Notes under the pieces: model-generated
Databases searched by the model: none
Seen by the model: only the letters and a program-made list of their open reading frames with translations
Told to the model about the DNA's origin: nothing
Source: a virus
Strand: one strand, 5' to 3'
IMG/VR virus record: IMGVR_UViG_3300020162_000359
Span: 1 to 20,492 of that record
Length of the DNA stretch: 20,492 bases
Part shown: in pieces, positions 10,979 to 20,492 of the stretch
Numbering within the stretch: the first letter of the stretch is position 1
How the letters are laid out: each line of letters opens with the position of its first letter
Program-made: the position numbers and the translations under genes

Positions 10979-11176
10979 TTATTTCTTCTTATTAATTTTA
11001 TCTAAGATTTTTTGCAAATCATCTAAAGAATCACTCGTGTTTTTAAGTGCTTTAGCTAATTCAGGATTTCTTTCTGCTGATTTTTCTATGAAATACTTAT
11101 CTAATCCTCTTTTATAGGAATCCATAAAGCTATCTACAAATTTATTAAGAATCCCTTCTCTAATAGGTTGTTTCAT
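10979..11176 (-). CDS. Small charged protein upstream of the tape measure
   Basis: This 65-residue product is of unknown family, highly charged and probably all helical (KALKNTSDSLDDLQKILDKI at the C-terminal end, ending in NKKK). It is preceded by a promoter-like motif and a terminator, so it appears to lead the tape-measure/baseplate transcription unit, and its stop is 6 nt before the tape measure start. A helper of the tape measure is possible from position alone; no motif proves it. Confidence 0.7.
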   Translation of the reverse strand: MKQPIREGILNKFVDSFMDSYKRGLDKYFIEKSAERNPELAKALKNTSDSLDDLQKILDKINKKK

Positions 11177-11246: not shown

Positions 11247-11543
11247 CTATCTCATCCTTACTTTTGAAGAACCACCAGAAGGAACTTTTGTTTTCCTATT
11301 GGCTCTATCATATTCTTCTTTCTCTTTTTTCTTTAAATCTACTAACTTTTTAAGATAAAATCTCCTCCAATGAATTGGCATTGTATATACATCTTTCCAA
11401 GTAAATCCATTACCATATTGAACCAAACTCCAAATCTCTTCGTGAAGTTGTGTGGAGTAATTAGTTGGAAGGGTAAAAAAAGCTAACCCCAAAAGGTATA
11501 TCAAGTGCCTCCCTCTCACCGGTAATATCTGATACAAATTCAA
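11247..11543 (-). CDS. Tail assembly chaperone-like T segment, probably by frameshift
   Basis: This frame overlaps the end of the 253-residue gene and has no ATG until deep inside its conserved part. The first in-frame possible start is TTG at 11543, with no ribosome binding site. The distinctive part is after the slip site, about 75 residues from 11474 to the stop: QLHEEIWSLVQYGNGFTWKD, then VYTMPIHWRRFYLKKL, and a basic tail. Short Trp-rich second frames like this occur beside tape measure genes in many phages and are translated as the T part of a G/GT chaperone fusion. I infer the same here: about 249 residues of the first frame plus 75 of this one, about 324 in total. It could instead be a separate gene or reflect an indel in the T run. 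Confidence 0.7.
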   Translation of the reverse strand: MNLYQILPVRGRHLIYLLGLAFFTLPTNYSTQLHEEIWSLVQYGNGFTWKDVYTMPIHWRRFYLKKLVDLKKKEKEEYDRANRKTKVPSGGSSKVRMR

Positions 11544-12222
11544 ATTTTAAATCCAAATCAGGTGCAAACTCTCTAACATGCGCTCTTAATGCTCTACTAT
11601 CTTGAGCTAACAATTGATTACTTACCCAATTATTAATGAATCCTCTTTCAGTATTACCTTCAACCTCTACTATCATCTTTCTTAATCTAGTCGTAACTTC
11701 AACAGGATTAGTACCCTTTGATAATTTATCTAATGCAGCTACTTCAGCTTGCACATCCTTCTCATCTCTGTGTGATAATAATTTGAATTTAATCTTTTTA
11801 TTAGATTGAGGTAGTGTGAATTCATAACGATTATCTCTTCTTAATTTAGAATAATCGATTTCCTTTGTTTGAACTTTAGATAAATCAATCGTTACTTGCT
11901 GCCTTTCACCACTAAATGGGTCAGATACTTCTACTTGATAAGCCGCTCCATATCCTAAAATACGAGTTGCTAACATAATAGCGTTCTTATCACCTGTAAC
12001 TAAGTCATCAATAGTGGTATCAACAACCACCGATTCTAATAACTTATCTAATACAATACCTTTTTTGATTAGGTTCTGAGAAGAAAGAATATCTTCCTCT
12101 CTTGCGGTCATATATTTGATGGTAACTTGTCCGGTTGCCAATGGATGACCTTCTGGGTAACATTTTCCTTCCGATGGTAATGATATCACCTCTGTTGGAA
12201 ATTCATAATTTTTTTCTGCCAT
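11461..12222 (-). CDS. T4 gp26/gp51-type tail assembly or baseplate protein
   Basis: The 253-residue product has FPTEVISLPSEGKCYPEGHP at its N-terminus, then IKYMTAREEDILSSQNL and LDKLLESVVVD, a pattern I associate with T4-like baseplate/hub-assembly proteins (gp26/gp51 family). The middle (GDKNAIMLATRILGYGAAY) is also typical. It sits between tube and tape measure, the usual place of tail assembly chaperones, and is the only full gene of its transcription unit, bounded by terminators on both sides. Its last codons read AGC TTT TTT TAC CCT TCC AAC TAA, containing the T7 run that could shift ribosomes into the overlapping frame. The chaperone role is inferred from position and the overlap. Confidence 0.75.
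   Translation of the reverse strand: MAEKNYEFPTEVISLPSEGKCYPEGHPLATGQVTIKYMTAREEDILSSQNLIKKGIVLDKLLESVVVDTTIDDLVTGDKNAIMLATRILGYGAAYQVEVSDPFSGERQQVTIDLSKVQTKEIDYSKLRRDNRYEFTLPQSNKKIKFKLLSHRDEKDVQAEVAALDKLSKGTNPVEVTTRLRKMIVEVEGNTERGFINNWVSNQLLAQDSRALRAHVREFAPDLDLKFEFVSDITGEREALDIPFGVSFFYPSN
11475..11481 (-). other. Candidate +1 (or -2) frameshift site, T7 run
   Basis: The coding strand has seven Ts, read AGC TTT TTT TAC in the first frame, 12 nt before its TAA. A Phe tRNA on the second TTT can move forward one base and still pair with TTT, continuing as ACC CTT CCA in the overlapping frame. A -2 slip would also re-pair and add one Phe. The -1 frame is not the one that is open downstream. Confidence 0.6.
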
Positions 12223-12325: not shown

Positions 12326-12817
12326 TTAGAATTCTAAGATTGCGTAATCGTAAGTCAAAGTGATTTCGATTTGCGCAGGGTCTGTAGCATTACTCCAATC
12401 CAAGTCACCGAAGTTAGCTTGAGAGATAAATGCTCCTTTTAGTTTCCATTGCTCAATTTTATCACCTACTGGACCTAACATATAGAAATCCACATCCTTC
12501 TTATAGAATTCTGCGTATCCATCTCTACCTGTCAATGATTCATGTGATGTTCTAATCCACTCCATTACCGCTTGAGCTCCAGAAGGAACGATTGGGTCAA
12601 ACAATGTAAGTGCTACATCTTGCCAATCACCCTTTCCTTTTAACTTTCTTTTCACGTTGATGTGGTCTAATACAACCGTCTCAAACTGAATTGTAGGTCT
12701 GTTTGCTACTCTTACTAAGTATGAAGGAATACCATCGATTTCTACGATGAATCTATTTTTCATCTTAGGTTCGAAATTGGTATAAAACATTTCGTTAAAT
12801 TCTAATACTTCTGCCAT
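12326..12817 (-). CDS. Tail tube protein (T4 gp19-like)
   Basis: The 163-residue product matches the T4 gp19 type of tube protein in size and layout. It starts EFNEMFYTNFEPKMKNRFIV, followed by EIDGIPSYLVRVANRP, a KRKLKGKGDW segment and the ending ITLTYDYAILEF. Many copies stack into the inner tube through which DNA passes. It follows the sheath gene by 38 nt in the standard sheath-tube order, carries its own ATATTTATA motif, and is closed by the terminator downstream. Tube needs high copy number, which fits an extra promoter. Confidence 0.92.
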   Translation of the reverse strand: MAEVLEFNEMFYTNFEPKMKNRFIVEIDGIPSYLVRVANRPTIQFETVVLDHINVKRKLKGKGDWQDVALTLFDPIVPSGAQAVMEWIRTSHESLTGRDGYAEFYKKDVDFYMLGPVGDKIEQWKLKGAFISQANFGDLDWSNATDPAQIEITLTYDYAILEF

Positions 12818-12855: not shown

Positions 12856-15198
12856 TTATACACTAAAAGTTGCTCCTGTCGGTAAGATATTGAAATCTAT
12901 TACGATAAATTCAGCAGTTTTAGCAGGTTGTAAAAACACAGAACCTTGTAATATGTTTCTGTCGATTACATCCGGTGTATTATTTGTCTCGTCCATAACC
13001 ACTCTAAATGCATATAAACCTTGTCTTTGTTGAACGCTCTCTAAGTAAGGGTTTACTGTATTTAAGAATTTAGCTCTTGTTTGTCCGGTGTTTTGTTCGA
13101 ACACTAAGAATCTAGAAGTAGATGCAACGAACTTCTTCAAGTTAATTAACAATCTTCTTACGTTGATTCTATCTAATGCCGATGCACTTTCTTGTAAAGT
13201 TTTTTGTCCAAATGCACTAATACCTTGTCCAGGGAATGCCGCAATTGGGTTTACTTTTCCTTCGTATAATGTATCTCTTTCAGATTGAGTTAATCTATTC
13301 ATTACTTGAACCGCTCCCTGAATACCACCTCTGTTTAAACCAGCTGGTGCGAACCATTCAGCACCTAATCTATCGTTCTGTGCATATGTACCAACTAATA
13401 AAACTGAAGGAGGTACAGGTAAAATTCTATTTGTCAATGAATCAACTGTCTTAACCCAAGGATAATAAGTACCTGCGTAATTAGAATCAACTTGTCCTGC
13501 TTCTTCTACTACAGAAGTAATATCATCATTTGCTCCAACAAAATCTGCTATATAAAATACATCTTCTCTCGCCTCACAAACATCAATTGCTTTCTGTGAT
13601 ACATAATTATGTTCTTTTCTAATAATACCAGGAGTTACTAATAAATTGATATCTATCTCGTCTGCATTTGAAAGTGTATTCAAAGCTTTCACATATGCCT
13701 TTGTTCCCCATGCTGCAGAACCATTACAATTAATGCCCTGTGTATTATTACTAACTATATCCCCACCTTTTTTGATTGGTATAGTTGGATTAATTCCACT
13801 ATATCCACCTTGTAATGCTAAACAGAAGTTTCTCTTTGCGATAGTGGCAGTTGCATCTGAACCACTTAGTTCACTTGCATCCAATCCAACTTGTGTATCT
13901 AATCCAAAAACTATGTTTGAACCTGTTCCAGCTGAAGCCGGTATTGGGTTTAGATAGTTTTTGTTATTTTTATAAGCAATAGTATCGGTATCTCCGAACT
14001 CAAACCCACTTGAATTAGTTCCATTTGTAGATGCAGTTGTATATTCTACAACTGGAAAATCAGTACCTACTACCTGACCGGTTAAATAAACAGGTAATTC
14101 ATATGCCGCAAATCCAAAAGGAGATGCATTTATTGGAAATGTACCATCTGCTTTTACTTCTACATAAATAAATTTACTTTTATTTGAATAATCACCAAAT
14201 TCTTTTATTTTTCCAGTTGATTCAATTGTAATATATCTATCACCAATTCTTCTAGCTATGTAGTTAGGGGAATTTGGATTTAAATTTAAATTACTATAAG
14301 TTTCCAACACAACCTTTCTCTTATCAGTATCATTAAAATCTCTAACCGTTAATGTAAATGTACCATAATCGTCATTTATTATTTTTACATTAGAAATTTG
14401 AATTTTGAATCTTTGGTTTTCACTCTCTCCGTGTGAAATTGTTTTAACTTTAAATAAATCATATCTACTCGTACCATTAAATATTTGGGAAAGAATCCAT
14501 GGAGTTTCTGCATTAGAATATCCATTATCCATCACTCTAAAGTTCTGAATAGGAAGTTCAGCTACGTTTACAGAACCATCTTCTGCGCCGGTATATGTAG
14601 CATCAATCAAATTAGATTCATCAAATACTATGTTAGCATATTTAGTTTTTTTAGTAGTAGGTGTAGTTCCCAATACTTTATCAATTGAATTGGCCTGCGT
14701 TAAGTCTATAGAAACTGTATAAGGTGTTGCACCTAAAGTTAATATGAATTCATGAGCCTCTAATCCAACAGGTTGAACATCTGTTGTTCCAACAGTTGCA
14801 GCAGATGAAGTCAATGACCCTTCTGCATTAGATGATGTACTTTCAAGTACAGCGATTACTCTTTTTGTAGGACCAGTTCCATCCTGTCCGTAAACTACAT
14901 ATGTTCCACCGCTTCCTCCTGCTAAAGTAGTATGACCATCTGTTCCTGCTACTCTAACTACGGTTACTGAACCGGCATCTCTTAAATAATTCTGTACTGT
15001 ATAACCTGTGTAATAATCTTTCGGTGCTCCAAAGATTTGTTCATATTCAGCTTGTGACGTTACTAACGTAGGAACGAATGCAGGTCCCTTTTCTGTAGGG
15101 CCTACAATAGCTGCACCTATTTGTGATATACCTTGTGGTAAGAAAGAAAGGTCATTTTCTCTCGTAAATACACCAGGTGATACAATTTTCTCTGCCAT
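12856..15198 (-). CDS. Contractile tail sheath protein (T4 gp18-like)
   Basis: The 780-residue product forms the contractile sheath. The N-terminus (SPGVFTRENDLSFLPQG, AAIVGPTEKGPAFVPT, then the FGAPKDYYTGYTVQNYL and VTVVRVAG segments) is the standard opening of sheath proteins. The last ~160 residues carry NRGGIQGAV, SERDTLY, VNPIAAFPGQGISAFGQKTL and SALDRINVRRLLINLKKFV, the conserved sheath core that grips neighbours. The middle, about 100-500, is a large variable beta-rich insertion, making it longer than T4 gp18 (659 residues); such domains usually face outward. It starts 58 nt after the small coiled-coil gene and has its own upstream motif. Confidence 0.95.
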   Translation of the reverse strand: MAEKIVSPGVFTRENDLSFLPQGISQIGAAIVGPTEKGPAFVPTLVTSQAEYEQIFGAPKDYYTGYTVQNYLRDAGSVTVVRVAGTDGHTTLAGGSGGTYVVYGQDGTGPTKRVIAVLESTSSNAEGSLTSSAATVGTTDVQPVGLEAHEFILTLGATPYTVSIDLTQANSIDKVLGTTPTTKKTKYANIVFDESNLIDATYTGAEDGSVNVAELPIQNFRVMDNGYSNAETPWILSQIFNGTSRYDLFKVKTISHGESENQRFKIQISNVKIINDDYGTFTLTVRDFNDTDKRKVVLETYSNLNLNPNSPNYIARRIGDRYITIESTGKIKEFGDYSNKSKFIYVEVKADGTFPINASPFGFAAYELPVYLTGQVVGTDFPVVEYTTASTNGTNSSGFEFGDTDTIAYKNNKNYLNPIPASAGTGSNIVFGLDTQVGLDASELSGSDATATIAKRNFCLALQGGYSGINPTIPIKKGGDIVSNNTQGINCNGSAAWGTKAYVKALNTLSNADEIDINLLVTPGIIRKEHNYVSQKAIDVCEAREDVFYIADFVGANDDITSVVEEAGQVDSNYAGTYYPWVKTVDSLTNRILPVPPSVLLVGTYAQNDRLGAEWFAPAGLNRGGIQGAVQVMNRLTQSERDTLYEGKVNPIAAFPGQGISAFGQKTLQESASALDRINVRRLLINLKKFVASTSRFLVFEQNTGQTRAKFLNTVNPYLESVQQRQGLYAFRVVMDETNNTPDVIDRNILQGSVFLQPAKTAEFIVIDFNILPTGATFSV

Positions 15199-15754: not shown

Positions 15755-17050
15755 TTATCCGCTTGCAGTTGAACCATATCCTGTTTGTAATCCTGCAAAG
15801 TTTGTTTTAGCTCTTGCATAAATCACAGATGGAGTTTTGAAATTTAATGTATTTGAACTATATGATGTAAATGTACCTAATACAGATGTAAACCCACTAT
15901 CAGATGCCACTTGTATATCATATGAATAGTTCGCTGTAATTGCTGTTGAACCAGGTGATACTACCGCTGAGTTTGTACTCAACGCCAATTGTTTATATGT
16001 ATCCCCACCGATTGCTACAGTTGTAATTGCAATAGTAGGAGTTGCAGAAATTGAATATCCTGCTAATGAGTTTGCTCCTTTATTGTGAGTTACAAATCCA
16101 TTAACTAAAAATGTATCCACATCTTCAACATCAATTGATACAACTTCCAATGTAGAATTTTGTACTTCGTTTGTTATTATTTCTACCTCTTCTATATCAC
16201 CATCAACTGATACTTTTATTAAACGGTCTCCAGGTTGAAGTAATCCCAATGGTTTAAATTTATAAACTTCTTCGTTCATATCCCAAACCATCATAGGGTG
16301 TTCTCCGTTTCCTCTAACATCTCCTTTTGCAGTTGTTACTTTATTCCATCTATCAACAAATGTATATGCTACATCTCTTACATATGCTTCTACTATTATT
16401 CCACCAGGTGTATAATACTTCCAATCATAGAAATTAAAATCATTCGATTGTTGAAAGTGTGGAGGAAAATATGCTTTTACAACATCCTCTTCTACTAAAT
16501 CTCCTGCTTTTTTAAATGTACCATCCCACATTTCTATCATCTCATCTAAGTGTAAACATAGTCCACTCGCTCCCGCATAATCATCAACGTTGTATATCGT
16601 TTTTGTTTTAGTTAGATTATAATCTGTAGCGTGGTCATTATAAAGGTCTCTGAATGTTACCGAAAGTGTTCTAGCAGTTGGGGCTGCCAATGTAGCTGAG
16701 TTACCTACCGCAGCTGCAGTAACAGTTGGATTATACGGAGGATTTGATTGAAGTGTAAACTCTGCTCCTGCTGATAAACTCCAAGTGAAATTATTATATT
16801 GTGAACCTATTCTACTAAGAAATCTACTACCTGCATTAGTGAATCCTAATGTCATTGTTTCCGCAGTTGATTCTTTAACGTATGTAAATCCACTCAATGT
16901 ACCAACAGCATCAATTGAAAATTCAGAAAATGCAATTGGTCCGGTTGTTGTACCAGCTGCAGTTGCAATAGAATAATCAGAGGTTGCTGCATTACCCGTT
17001 GCGGCCTTTAACTTTGATAGCTCTAAATTATCCCCTTGTGTTCTAGGCAT
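15755..17050 (-). CDS. Virion-type protein with an internal Hint (intein-like) domain
   Basis: The 431-residue product has three parts. Residues 1-164 are Thr/Ala/Ser-rich and beta-type, like phage appendage proteins. Residues 165-323 form a Hint domain without an endonuclease: block A starts at Cys165 (CLHLDEMIEMWDGTFKKAG), the block B counterpart is GNGEHPMMV with His251, and block F/G reads VEDVDTFLVNGFVTHN with His322-Asn323. Residues 335-431 look like an Fn3-type beta domain. Hint domains splice or cut proteins at their own ends. The residue after Asn323 is Lys, not the Cys/Ser/Thr needed for normal splicing, so cleavage at one or both ends, or loss of activity, is likelier. It overlaps the glycosyltransferase stop by 8 nt (ATGCCTAG), and both belong to the fibre cluster. 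Confidence 0.85.
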   Translation of the reverse strand: MPRTQGDNLELSKLKAATGNAATSDYSIATAAGTTTGPIAFSEFSIDAVGTLSGFTYVKESTAETMTLGFTNAGSRFLSRIGSQYNNFTWSLSAGAEFTLQSNPPYNPTVTAAAVGNSATLAAPTARTLSVTFRDLYNDHATDYNLTKTKTIYNVDDYAGASGLCLHLDEMIEMWDGTFKKAGDLVEEDVVKAYFPPHFQQSNDFNFYDWKYYTPGGIIVEAYVRDVAYTFVDRWNKVTTAKGDVRGNGEHPMMVWDMNEEVYKFKPLGLLQPGDRLIKVSVDGDIEEVEIITNEVQNSTLEVVSIDVEDVDTFLVNGFVTHNKGANSLAGYSISATPTIAITTVAIGGDTYKQLALSTNSAVVSPGSTAITANYSYDIQVASDSGFTSVLGTFTSYSSNTLNFKTPSVIYARAKTNFAGLQTGYGSTASG

Positions 17051-18056
17051 TATATAAATTTGTTAATTGTTCTTTCCAACTTTGTTTTGTACCGAATCGT
17101 TGTTCTAATAAATATTTAAATTTATCAAACTCCTCTTTTTTCTCTTCATATGTGAGATACCCAATACTATCATAAATATCTTTAAATTCCTCTTTAGTAC
17201 TAGCTCTGAATTTATAAGGTATATCTTCACACCAATCTTTTGATATGATAGGTAATTTACCCCAATCTAAACTTTGAAATATGGAGAACCCAAATGGCTC
17301 AGCAGAAAATGCACAATGAGATATACCCCAATCCATACCATAGTATATTTCTTCAAATTGGCTTTCATATTGAATTTGTTTTAAGTTCTTAAAGTTTATA
17401 TCAGTTTTCTGTTTCCAAGTCTTTTGAAAGGTTCTTATATTAGTAAACATAAATCCTCCCAATTGGTCTAAGTAATGTGGGTTTTTTCTACTCTCACATC
17501 TCGCAGTAAATCCTATAAAGTTTGAATCAGATAATTCTTTATTATGAGTAAATTCGTAGTATGATGGTATATTGATTGTCCCATTAAATTTCTCACCTTT
17601 CAATTCGTACAATCCTATCCATACTTTGTTTTTAGCATAAGATAGTATTTCAGTTTCCCATTTATCCGAATAGTATGGTGTCCATCCAAAAGGTAAATCA
17701 GTTAAACCTGTTTCTACTATTACTTTATCTAAACAATTGTGGATTATATAAGAATGAATTTTATCCTTATTATCTTCTATTAATTCTAAGGGAGTGTAGT
17801 GAGCATGTAAAATGTTAGCCCTCCTACACTCTCTAAACTTATCTTCAAAAATATCTTTATGATTTCCATTCTCATCATTGTACCAATAGTGTTCAATCGG
17901 TATATCAAAATTAAAATCAGTTGGCTTTGTTCTGTAAATTAAAAGAATGGGCTTCACCTCTAAATTCGGTACTACTTCTTTCAGCCAGTTATTTACCCAA
18001 ATATCAACACCGGTATTGATTTTACCAATACCGGTGCTAAAATATATATCGTACAT
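17043..18056 (-). CDS. GT-B type glycosyltransferase (GT4-like)
   Basis: The 337-residue product resembles a retaining GT-B glycosyltransferase of the GT4 kind, which moves a sugar from a nucleotide-sugar donor. The C-terminal half has GFTARCESRKNPHYLDQL near 182-199 and SAEPFGFSIFQSLDWGKLPI near 251-270. That is the donor-site region, with Glu253; the usual second Glu of the E-x7-E motif reads Gln261. NILHAHYTPL near 81-90 fits the N-terminal domain. It starts on the TAATG of the fibre gene, so it is translationally coupled to it. Likely targets are virion proteins such as the fibre or host surface sugar; this is inference from position. Confidence 0.82.
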   Translation of the reverse strand: MYDIYFSTGIGKINTGVDIWVNNWLKEVVPNLEVKPILLIYRTKPTDFNFDIPIEHYWYNDENGNHKDIFEDKFRECRRANILHAHYTPLELIEDNKDKIHSYIIHNCLDKVIVETGLTDLPFGWTPYYSDKWETEILSYAKNKVWIGLYELKGEKFNGTINIPSYYEFTHNKELSDSNFIGFTARCESRKNPHYLDQLGGFMFTNIRTFQKTWKQKTDINFKNLKQIQYESQFEEIYYGMDWGISHCAFSAEPFGFSIFQSLDWGKLPIISKDWCEDIPYKFRASTKEEFKDIYDSIGYLTYEEKKEEFDKFKYLLEQRFGTKQSWKEQLTNLYNA

Positions 18057-20492
18057 TATAACCCCTTTTGTTTCTTTATTTGTTCGATTTCAGCTTTTAA
18101 GTTATCGATTTGTATTTGTTGTTCTTTCATACCTTCGATAAGAAGTGCAACTAACTTATCATACTTAACCGCTTTATATCCACTTTCTCTTGTTTGAACT
18201 AATTCTGGAAGTATCTCTTCAATTTCTTGTGCGATAACACCCACATCATGTCCTTCGTGTCCATGTAATTCAACGTTTGAAATCCAATCGAATTCGTATC
18301 CACCTATTTTTAATACTTTAGCTAATGCGTTTGGTATATTTTTGATATTTTCTTTGAATCTTCTATCTGATGAAGAATATGCTACGATATCGTTTGCCGC
18401 ATCTATTCTACCTGCAGTTCCACTTGCACCAACTCCAATTCCTAAAGAACCAAATCTTACGTTTGATGCAGTACCGATATCCTGAGGTAATGCTAATGAT
18501 GCAGTCATACCACCATTTGCGATGATACCACTTACTGTAATCTGGTTTGATGCTCCTGTTACGTTTGTTACTCTAGGAATACTTGCTAAGTTAACAGTTG
18601 CGTATCCGGTAGATGAGTTGATTGTTAAATCACCATTTACCCATGCCGCAATTGTACCTCTAGCTCCGTTGGTAAAATGCGATGAACCGGTATTTAATGA
18701 AACAATATCTGCTCCGACTGTTATACCATCACCTGCTCCTACCGCTAAAGTATGAGCAACGCCTTCGCCACTTGTCGCCCCACCGGTCAAACCAGCGCCA
18801 GGATTAATACTTGCAACATAATCTCCCGTTGTATCAGTTCCTAAAGCAATTGAATTTGCTTGAATTGTAGCAGTACCATCTGTTGCAATTAAGATATCTC
18901 CTTTAACATATGATACAACTGCTTGCTGAGAACCTGATTGGAAATGAACTGATTGTGTATCAATTGCGAATATAGTATTTGTTTGGTTCTTAAATACTGA
19001 ACCACTAATACCACTACCCGCAGTTACATAATATTGTAAATTTCCTTTGTATTCTCCTGCAGTTACTTCTCCTCTGAAATTAGAAGCAGAAGCACTCATA
19101 AATCCACTTGCTGAAATGTTTCCACCGAATCCTGCTAAAGGATGCCCAAGAGGATAATCGGATGCAGTTATAGAACCCGTTACTCTTAAATTATTAGAGA
19201 ACCATGCGGTTGAACCTGTTATCGGCCCTTGGAATGATGATGAACCATATGCTCCCTCACCTTCTATTCTAAATCCACTTGCAGTTATTACACCACTTGC
19301 AGAAATATTACTATTAAATGTACCCACTCCATCATGTATAGATGCACCGGTTACTCTAAATCCTCCGTTTGATTGGATACCCGAACCTGATATAGCACCA
19401 CTCGCAGAAATTGTACTTCTTACGGTTGTAGCACCAATAATCAATGCAGTTCCATCGAATTGAACATTTGATAATGCTCTGATTTCACCTGCTGACCATA
19501 CACCACTACCTGTGATACCTTTACTAGCAGAGATATATTCTTTACCACTTATGTTTCCAACAACTTCTAATGCTCCACTTATGTTTGTAGCGTTTTGTAC
19601 AAATAATGCAGATGCACTAATTGTATTACTTGCAGATACGAAACCTCTTAATGAAGTATTCCCTTCTACAAATAATGCTCCACCACTTACGGTTGAACTA
19701 GCTGAAATATGATTGAATGATGCAGTTTGTGCTACTAATATTGTTGATGATGTAACTGCGCCATTTACAAACAATCCACTACCTAATCTCATATTAGTTT
19801 CAGCATTCGACCATGAGAAGAATACGTTAGCACCACTTATGAATAAACCTGCTCCGTTTGCAGAAACCGATGTAGTTGAACCACTAGCGATTTCAATTAA
19901 ACGGTCTTCAATTTTTAAATCTGAAATTTGAAGTTGAGTTGTTGTACCCAATACATTCAAATCTCCTTTAATAGTTGTTACTGAACTTACACCACTTCCC
20001 GCTACAGTTATAGCATCTTTTAATGAAGAAGAATAAACTTCCAATGCACCAGTTGCCTGGTTAACTTGATTTCTAAATGTCGTTAAGTTTATACCATTAA
20101 TTGTACTTGCGTTGAAATCACCATTTACGGTAAACGCTTTGTCTAAGTACATATATTGTTCAGGATGGTCCCAATAGAAATTAACATTAGCACCACTTAT
20201 GAATAAACCTGCTTTATCCGATTGAGCAGAAGTTGTAGAACCACTATTTATTTCAATTTGCTTATCCTTAACTTGTAATCTATCAACTCTTAATTCACCT
20301 AATGTACCTCTAACTTGTAAGTTATTGAATACAATTAAATCGCCATTACTTTCAGATACCGCAGTTCTTAATGATGCCGTATATGCGTTTATCGATGAAG
20401 AGAAATTATTATGTGAAGGTGCAAATTCTCTGATTAAAGTTCCATCAACAGTTCCTCTTACTTCAATATTGTTATCAGAGTAAAGTGTATCA
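18056..20492 (-). CDS. Tail fibre/appendage protein with S74 chaperone domain (5' end missing)
   Basis: The frame is open from the right edge through the internal ATG at 20152 to the stop at 18056, giving at least 811 residues, so the true start is outside the window. The visible part has two ~120-residue modules, then a long Ser/Gly/Ala repeat region typical of beta-structured fibres, then a further beta-rich stretch. The last ~108 residues are a peptidase S74 / intramolecular chaperone domain: SDRRFKENI holds the Ser (18370-18368) and the Lys five residues on (18355-18353), followed by GGYEFDW, HDVGVIAQEIEEILPELV and a C-terminal coiled coil. In known cases this domain drives trimer folding and then cuts itself off. 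The protein most likely binds the host or forms a side appendage. It is coupled to the glycosyltransferase by TAATG. Confidence 0.92.
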   Translation of the reverse strand, partial: DTLYSDNNIEVRGTVDGTLIREFAPSHNNFSSSINAYTASLRTAVSESNGDLIVFNNLQVRGTLGELRVDRLQVKDKQIEINSGSTTSAQSDKAGLFISGANVNFYWDHPEQYMYLDKAFTVNGDFNASTINGINLTTFRNQVNQATGALEVYSSSLKDAITVAGSGVSSVTTIKGDLNVLGTTTQLQISDLKIEDRLIEIASGSTTSVSANGAGLFISGANVFFSWSNAETNMRLGSGLFVNGAVTSSTILVAQTASFNHISASSTVSGGALFVEGNTSLRGFVSASNTISASALFVQNATNISGALEVVGNISGKEYISASKGITGSGVWSAGEIRALSNVQFDGTALIIGATTVRSTISASGAISGSGIQSNGGFRVTGASIHDGVGTFNSNISASGVITASGFRIEGEGAYGSSSFQGPITGSTAWFSNNLRVTGSITASDYPLGHPLAGFGGNISASGFMSASASNFRGEVTAGEYKGNLQYYVTAGSGISGSVFKNQTNTIFAIDTQSVHFQSGSQQAVVSYVKGDILIATDGTATIQANSIALGTDTTGDYVASINPGAGLTGGATSGEGVAHTLAVGAGDGITVGADIVSLNTGSSHFTNGARGTIAAWVNGDLTINSSTGYATVNLASIPRVTNVTGASNQITVSGIIANGGMTASLALPQDIGTASNVRFGSLGIGVGASGTAGRIDAANDIVAYSSSDRRFKENIKNIPNALAKVLKIGGYEFDWISNVELHGHEGHDVGVIAQEIEEILPELVQTRESGYKAVKYDKLVALLIEGMKEQQIQIDNLKAEIEQIKKQKGL
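19043..19708 (-). repeat. Ser/Gly-rich ISASG-type repeats in the fibre
   Basis: Residues following the two modules carry repeated short units of the form ISASG / ITASG / ISGSG, each followed by a hydrophobic strand (GALFVEGN, GIQSNGGFRV, GFRIEGEG, WFSNNLRV). Spacing is irregular, about 15-30 residues. The pattern suggests a beta-helix-like or triple-stranded beta shaft. Confidence 0.7.
19715..20434 (-). repeat. Two ~120-residue duplicated modules in the fibre
   Basis: Both modules contain IEI-x-SGSTTS followed by AGLFISGANV-x-F and a Trp, then a VNG turn. The corresponding residues are about 120 apart. At DNA level, 19827-19853 and 20187-20213 are an exact 27-base match offset by 360 bases. 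Identity drops outside this core, so the duplication is not recent across its whole length. Confidence 0.85.

Follow-up and report, generated by a model that had tools for sequence, protein, structure and literature searches.

How is a reading frame expressed when it overlaps the end of a T4 gp26-like gene and no ATG precedes its conserved part? The question is raised by a stretch of viral DNA of 20,492 nt (IMG/VR virus record IMGVR_UViG_3300020162_000359, positions 1 to 20,492), here called the window, which encodes a contractile-tail module on its minus strand. The original prediction, made from the sequence alone, was that a slip by one base forward or two bases back at a T7 run joins the two frames, such that a short and a long tail chaperone (TAC) are produced. 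Comparison with homologues points the same way and favours the forward slip. The locus is likely to express its chaperone in a short and a long form through a +1 slip at a conserved U run, a reading to which a probability of about 0.87 can be given.

The upstream gene (ORF1) ends in frame 0 with GTT AGC TTT TTT TAC CCT TCC AAC TAA, and the TAA stop is at 11461-11463. Read from the T-run in the +1 frame, the sequence is TTT TTT ACC CTT CCA ACT AAT... (FFTLPTN...). The T7 lies exactly where it had been placed, with a spacing to the stop of 11 nt and not 12 as claimed. The second frame, which begins as a TTG ORF, is +1 relative to ORF1 and indeed lacks an ATG ahead of its conserved part. The window contains ten runs of seven or more A or T, and the T7 by itself is unremarkable; its significance comes from conservation, not from run length.

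Gene order in the window is sheath, tube, TAC and a 990-aa ORF (Table 1), and the annotations of phages immuto and SP-15 show the same order, i.e. sheath, tube, TAC and tape measure. The placement of the pair between tube and tape measure genes is thereby confirmed. The immuto gene equivalent to the 990-aa ORF is annotated as tail tape measure protein; the ORF itself had no match in Pfam and PHROG profile searches. Other parts of the window carry a PhyH-type dioxygenase gene (1349-2137; PF05721, E 1e-22) and, adjoining it, an A-family DNA polymerase-like ORF with a TTG start (68-1315; E 1e-5, below the Pfam cut-off). A 431-aa ORF (15755-17050) has no Pfam match at E 1e-3 and contains, by eye, a Hint/intein-looking stretch (CLHLDEMIEMWDGTFKKAGDL ... 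VNGFVTHN). A fibre-like protein with many ISASG-type repeats and a C-terminal Peptidase_S74 intramolecular chaperone (18056-20491; E 9e-18) runs off the contig end.

Table 1. Positions of the tail genes and of the elements of the proposed slip site in the window
Feature	Position	Strand	Evidence or remark
Tail sheath protein	12856-15198	-	PF04984 + PF17482; phrog_23 E 1e-72
Tail tube protein, T4 gp19-like	12326-12817	-	PF06841 E 6e-8; phrog_4542 E 1e-27
ORF1, T4 gp26-like, putative short form TAC-N, 253 aa, ATG start	11461-12222	-	PF12322, phrog_150
Second frame, TTG ORF overlapping ORF1	11247-11543	-	ORF list
ORF2 extension, putative TAC-C, 75 aa from codon ACC	11247-11474	-	stop 11247-11249
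65-aa ORF between chaperone pair and tape measure gene	10979-11176	-	ORF list; weak phrog_7012
Presumed tape measure protein, 990 aa	8000-10972	-	position + length
Slip element UUU_UUU_U (T7)	11475-11481	-	conserved in homologues
First Phe codon	11479-11481	-	
Second Phe codon, proposed P-site codon at shift	11476-11478	-	
Extra base taken in by proposed slip	11475	-	
0-frame A-site codon UAC (UGG in most homologues)	11473-11475	-	
A-site codon ACC after proposed +1 slip	11472-11474	-	
Guard base 5' of T-run, C here	11482	-	T there would make U_UUU_UUU

What are the two proteins? ORF1 matches PF12322, the T4 base plate protein family, at E 5.6e-8 (33.2 bits, above the gathering cut-off of 24.5) and phrog_150 at E 3.8e-12; T4 gp26 and T4 gp51 each match the same two models, and the gp26-like assignment is borne out. 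The AlphaFold model of ORF1 is confident (pLDDT 90) and has 58 matches in BFVD at E up to 1e-3, to viral T4-like baseplate hub proteins. Foldseek gave a weak match to the HK97 gp13 TAC (2ob9; rank 7, E 2.1, prob 0.33), and a sequence search of solved structures yielded no match. ORF2, modelled apart from ORF1 and not as a fusion, is predicted to form a three-helix domain (pLDDT 84). The part of ORF2 that lies 3' of the ORF1 stop evolves as protein, with a dN/dS of 0.15 over 44 independent pairs. ORF1 and ORF2 are best read as a TAC-N/TAC-NC pair, in view of the order of the genes, their short/long architecture and what is published on lambda G/GT; chaperone function is a prediction by analogy. 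Pfam DUF6760, of unknown function, is matched by 16 of 42 ORF2 members (window 11250-11480 plus homologues; best E 8e-6). DUF6760 occurs in contractile injection system clusters, and such systems may also have a TAC-C-like protein.

The alignment of homologues keeps both the T-run site and the frame relation. In a first scan of 80 IMG/VR loci, T7 was found in the same place in all 80, together with a conserved +1 frame; that frame is shortened in two, at a contig end (L048) and by a likely indel (L072). Profile scans and isolate phages then brought the collection to 321 distinct ORF1 ends. ORF2 is in the +1 phase in 302 of these and in another phase in six, and went undetected by the +1 profile in 13, mostly distant phages that were read by hand. 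The six were inspected individually: a downstream indel is likely in L072, a jumbo phage of the -1 type accounts for L337, and a genuine -1 clade is made up of L217, L350 and L351, whereas L331 gives no clear picture (see below). Bacterial and archaeal assemblies contributed 11 further loci, among them two near-identical pairs, and all 11 are +1. Conservation of both frames and of their phase is thus shown.

The site itself is equally constrained. Among 300 of the +1 loci it reads TTT TTT T in 266, TTT CTT T in 26, TTC TTT T in six, and TTC TTT C and TTT TTT C in one each. The 0-frame codon that follows is TGG in 229 and TAC in 65. In 300 of the 302 +1 loci the shift codon is (U/C)UU with U or C as the next base, which allows re-pairing one base 3'. 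When the +1 loci were grouped at 70% identity into 121 clusters, the second Phe codon was TTT in 110/110 clusters (80.2 expected from each cluster's codon use, P ~1e-17). The site finder demanded NTT at the second codon, a filter that rejected just two of 302 loci, LR756508 (CTA) and Listeria phage LIS04 (TTT then A); therefore no TTC at the second codon was hidden by this requirement. Control Phe-Phe pairs elsewhere in the same loci are TTTTTT in 48 of 147, with T as the next base in only six of the 48. In the +1 frame, the third base of the second Phe codon falls at codon position two, and the TTT constraint is informative only because translation in that frame does not take place ahead of the slip. 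This is supported by the absence of any ATG, GTG or TTG in that frame 5' of the site in 125/300 loci, and by closure of the frame within the 12 nt upstream in 104/300.

A second constraint is found at the base that precedes the run. T stands there in 3/95 cluster representatives, the 95 being those whose preceding codon has a T-ending synonym, against 56.2 expected; the choice is synonymous in frame 0. T precedes TTT TTT T in one of 85 clusters, as compared with 14 of 35 at control TTT TTT in the same loci (Fisher p 4e-8). Seven loci do have T before the run, and all but one of these carry TTT CTT or TTC TTT, which gives no U_UUU_UUU. On these counts the pattern is one of avoidance of the -1 heptamer U_UUU_UUU. 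A rival reason would be escape from a T8 run for the sake of polymerase or replication fidelity.

How would the two products be made? Both would come from one start codon. Most ribosomes would end at 11461-11463 and release the 253-aa TAC-N. A minority would come to a pause while peptidyl-tRNA-Phe occupies the second UUU (11476-11478) and UAC the A site; the tRNA would re-pair one base forward onto UUU (11475-11477), and translation would go on at ACC to give a TAC-NC with a predicted length of 324 aa and a helical C-terminal domain. We infer that this slip occurs, that it does so at an efficiency which leaves TAC-N the major product, and that tRNA-Phe is the tRNA that moves. By analogy with lambda gpG/gpGT, TAC-N may coat the tape measure protein, and the C-terminal extension may recruit tube subunits. 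A slip at the second codon, from (U/C)UU to UUU or UUC, fits all variants but two. LR756508 (L084, 4501-5515), with TTT CTA TTC, would need the slip to take place at Phe codon 1, or some other mechanism, and LIS04, with TTT TTT AGT, would also require a codon-1 slip. As to stimulators, the A-site UGG or UAC is conserved, a scan for Shine-Dalgarno-like elements found none that is conserved, and the downstream structure signal is marginal (mean z -0.73 vs -0.33 to -0.47 in control stretches), with no clear structural element in the scans.

Could the ribosome instead slip back by two bases? A -2 shift, as employed by phage Mu (PMC5009743), enters the same frame with one extra residue (SFFF-TLP), and UUU to UUU re-pairing is possible on the T7 of the window. 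The variant sites argue otherwise. At TTC TTT T (the six loci) or TTC TTT C (GXN1, which is L085; L169; and the Bacilli MAG loci L428 and L429), a -2 move would place tRNA-Phe onto UCU, and at the CTG TTT C of LuckySocke onto UGU, each with a mismatch at the middle base. U or C follows the second codon in 300/300 loci, as +1 needs and -2 does not, although the amino acid encoded at that position and the way in which the site was defined partly confound this argument. The +1 shift is preferred because TTC TTT Y would give the -2 mismatch in mid-codon, and of the two directions first proposed the -2 is left as quite unlikely.

Slippage of RNA polymerase on the T7, with one U deleted in some of the mRNAs, would likewise bring ORF2 into frame, and T7 is present at 266/300 loci. 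Yet the 26 TTTCTTT and seven TTCTTTY loci have the same phase and a conserved ORF2 without a long homopolymer, and LR756508, which carries TTTCTATTC, also lacks one. With 33 of 300 sites devoid of a long T-run, transcriptional slippage is very unlikely as a general mechanism.

Still less probable is a separate ORF2 gene with its own start codon. Annotators have split ORF2 off in this manner: it is called gp51 in S-PM2 and S-SM1, and a hypothetical protein in both immuto and Mel-JY01. A conserved independent start was sought among the homologues and none was found: there is no ATG upstream in 252/300 loci and none within 75 nt after the site in 184/300, and the conserved FF(G/T)L segment adjoins the slip site, ahead of any start in many loci. 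A separate gene would also leave the codon and guard-base constraints unexplained. One locus stands apart. In L331 (LR756511, 4001-4926, from a 595-kb phage), ORF1 extends about 20 codons beyond FFFP, and ORF2, which is in the -1 phase, has an ATG where ORF1 stops; this may be a case of re-initiation and not of frameshifting.

A sequencing or assembly indel, conceivable in that homopolymers are error-prone and L072 has an apparent indel of such kind further downstream, is refuted by the homologues, as 302 distinct loci, drawn from isolates and many metagenomes, agree in this phase and a continuous ORF1-ORF2 frame was found at none of the 321 ends. Programmed +1 frameshifting that yields a short and a long chaperone, the substance of the original prediction, thus has the support of conserved frames, phase and site.

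The same gene appears to shift in the other direction in relatives of the +1 group. A set of -1 sites was found in the cyanophages S-PM2 and S-SM1, in Mendera, PX29, Milchi, RHph_Y68 and Vibrio D533, and in the jumbo phages 121Q, RaK2, GAP32, CBB, XbC2, Munch, Hallingskeid, PA5oct and Atu_ph07; with marine virus AG-345-E15 these make 17. ORF1 terminates at the same place, with Phe-Phe in nearly all, and ORF2 is in the -1 frame in all. T stands immediately before the site in 16/17, and the types are U_UUU_UUC (15), U_UUU_UUG (one) and A_CUU_UUC (one). ORF2 of the +1 group is homologous to its -1 counterpart (hhalign 96%, E 2.7e-9). Cyanophage records give the extension as a separate gp51 of ~57-60 aa. 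The C-terminus of gp51, when compared with the ORF2 profiles, gave E 0.12 (not significant) for the +1 group and a suggestive prob 58%, E 1e-4 for the -1 group.

L217, L350 and L351 have A_AAU_UUC, with ORF2 in -1. Their clade (SH-aLRT 100) is nested within the +1 group and therefore suggests a switch back to -1, although the tree is a quick one, without bootstrap, and its exact branching is tentative. We lean towards the view that the gp26-type gene has changed shift direction more than once with its product architecture constant, that the base 5' of UUU_UU helps to set direction (U in -1 lineages, and in +1 lineages a base other than U, mostly C, maintained by purifying selection), and that at least one clade within the +1 group reverted to -1 via A_AAU_UUC.

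What do these sites add? To our knowledge, natural +1 frameshifts of bacterial systems, prfB apart, are seldom backed by more than a few sequences. The natural sites collected here are diverse and number in the hundreds, and they define a requirement (NUU_Y), an avoidance (U before the run) and a route to a flip in direction. Current annotations miss or split the second chaperone form in T4-like phages of Flavobacterium, Microcystis, Bacillus and others; in the isolates immuto and SP-15, the long form is directly testable.

A study by Vladimirov, Gautam and Davidson (2022, Virology 566:9-15) reportedly identified TAC genes of T4-like phages and frameshifting in gp26-type TACs, and is said to name genes 26 and 51 as the TAC genes of T4. 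According to papers that cite it (PMC10885494, PMC12846349), T4-like TAC-N genes carry polyT -1 signals, and some T4-like phages have separate short and long TAC genes. That T4 genes 26 and 51 represent short and long forms resolved by duplication was entertained here as a new idea and is already published (PRFect paper, citing Vladimirov 2022). The 2016 review by Atkins lists T4 as an exception to G-T frameshifting. The window shares with the T4-like TACs the PF12322/phrog_150 family, the predicted short and long forms and a polyT signal; unlike them, as the citing papers describe them (-1 polyT or separate genes), it would use +1 at (U/C)UU_U and it avoids the -1 heptamer. S-PM2, S-SM1, 121Q, RaK2, GAP32, PA5oct, Atu_ph07, PX29 and Mendera have homologous ORF1 and ORF2 and a shift at the terminal Phe-Phe; unlike the window, these cyanophage, jumbo-phage and other gp26/gp51 pairs use U_UUU_UUC with ORF2 in -1. 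A literature search, in which Vladimirov 2022 was covered through citing papers, found no +1 mode in the gp26 family, (U/C)UU_Y site, guard-base signature or direction switch. As far as those sources go, the two-version strategy is known for T4-like phages, and the +1 direction, the site and the direction switch appear to be new.

With respect to the shift itself, the prfB (RF2) +1 site is CUU_U, and at that position CCC and UUU rank next in slipperiness (PMC10885494). UUC_UUU_CGU in GXN1 and L169 has its UUU_CGU in common with the +1 site of influenza PA-X (PMC3498833). As in prfB and PA-X, the proposed P-site tRNA on CUU_U or UUU_C would re-pair one base forward. Unlike these systems, with an A-site stop or rare CGU, nearly all loci here have UGG or UAC in the A site, and, also in contrast to them, there is no conserved Shine-Dalgarno-like stimulator. 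Among tail chaperones, lambda G/GT (-1) and Mu (-2) rely on frameshifting for short and long forms encoded beside the tape measure gene, and +1 frameshifting is thought very likely for the TAC of haloarchaeal HSTV-2. The window pair shares with all three the predicted short/long architecture and the position by the tape measure gene; unlike theirs, its ORF1 belongs to the T4 gp26 family.
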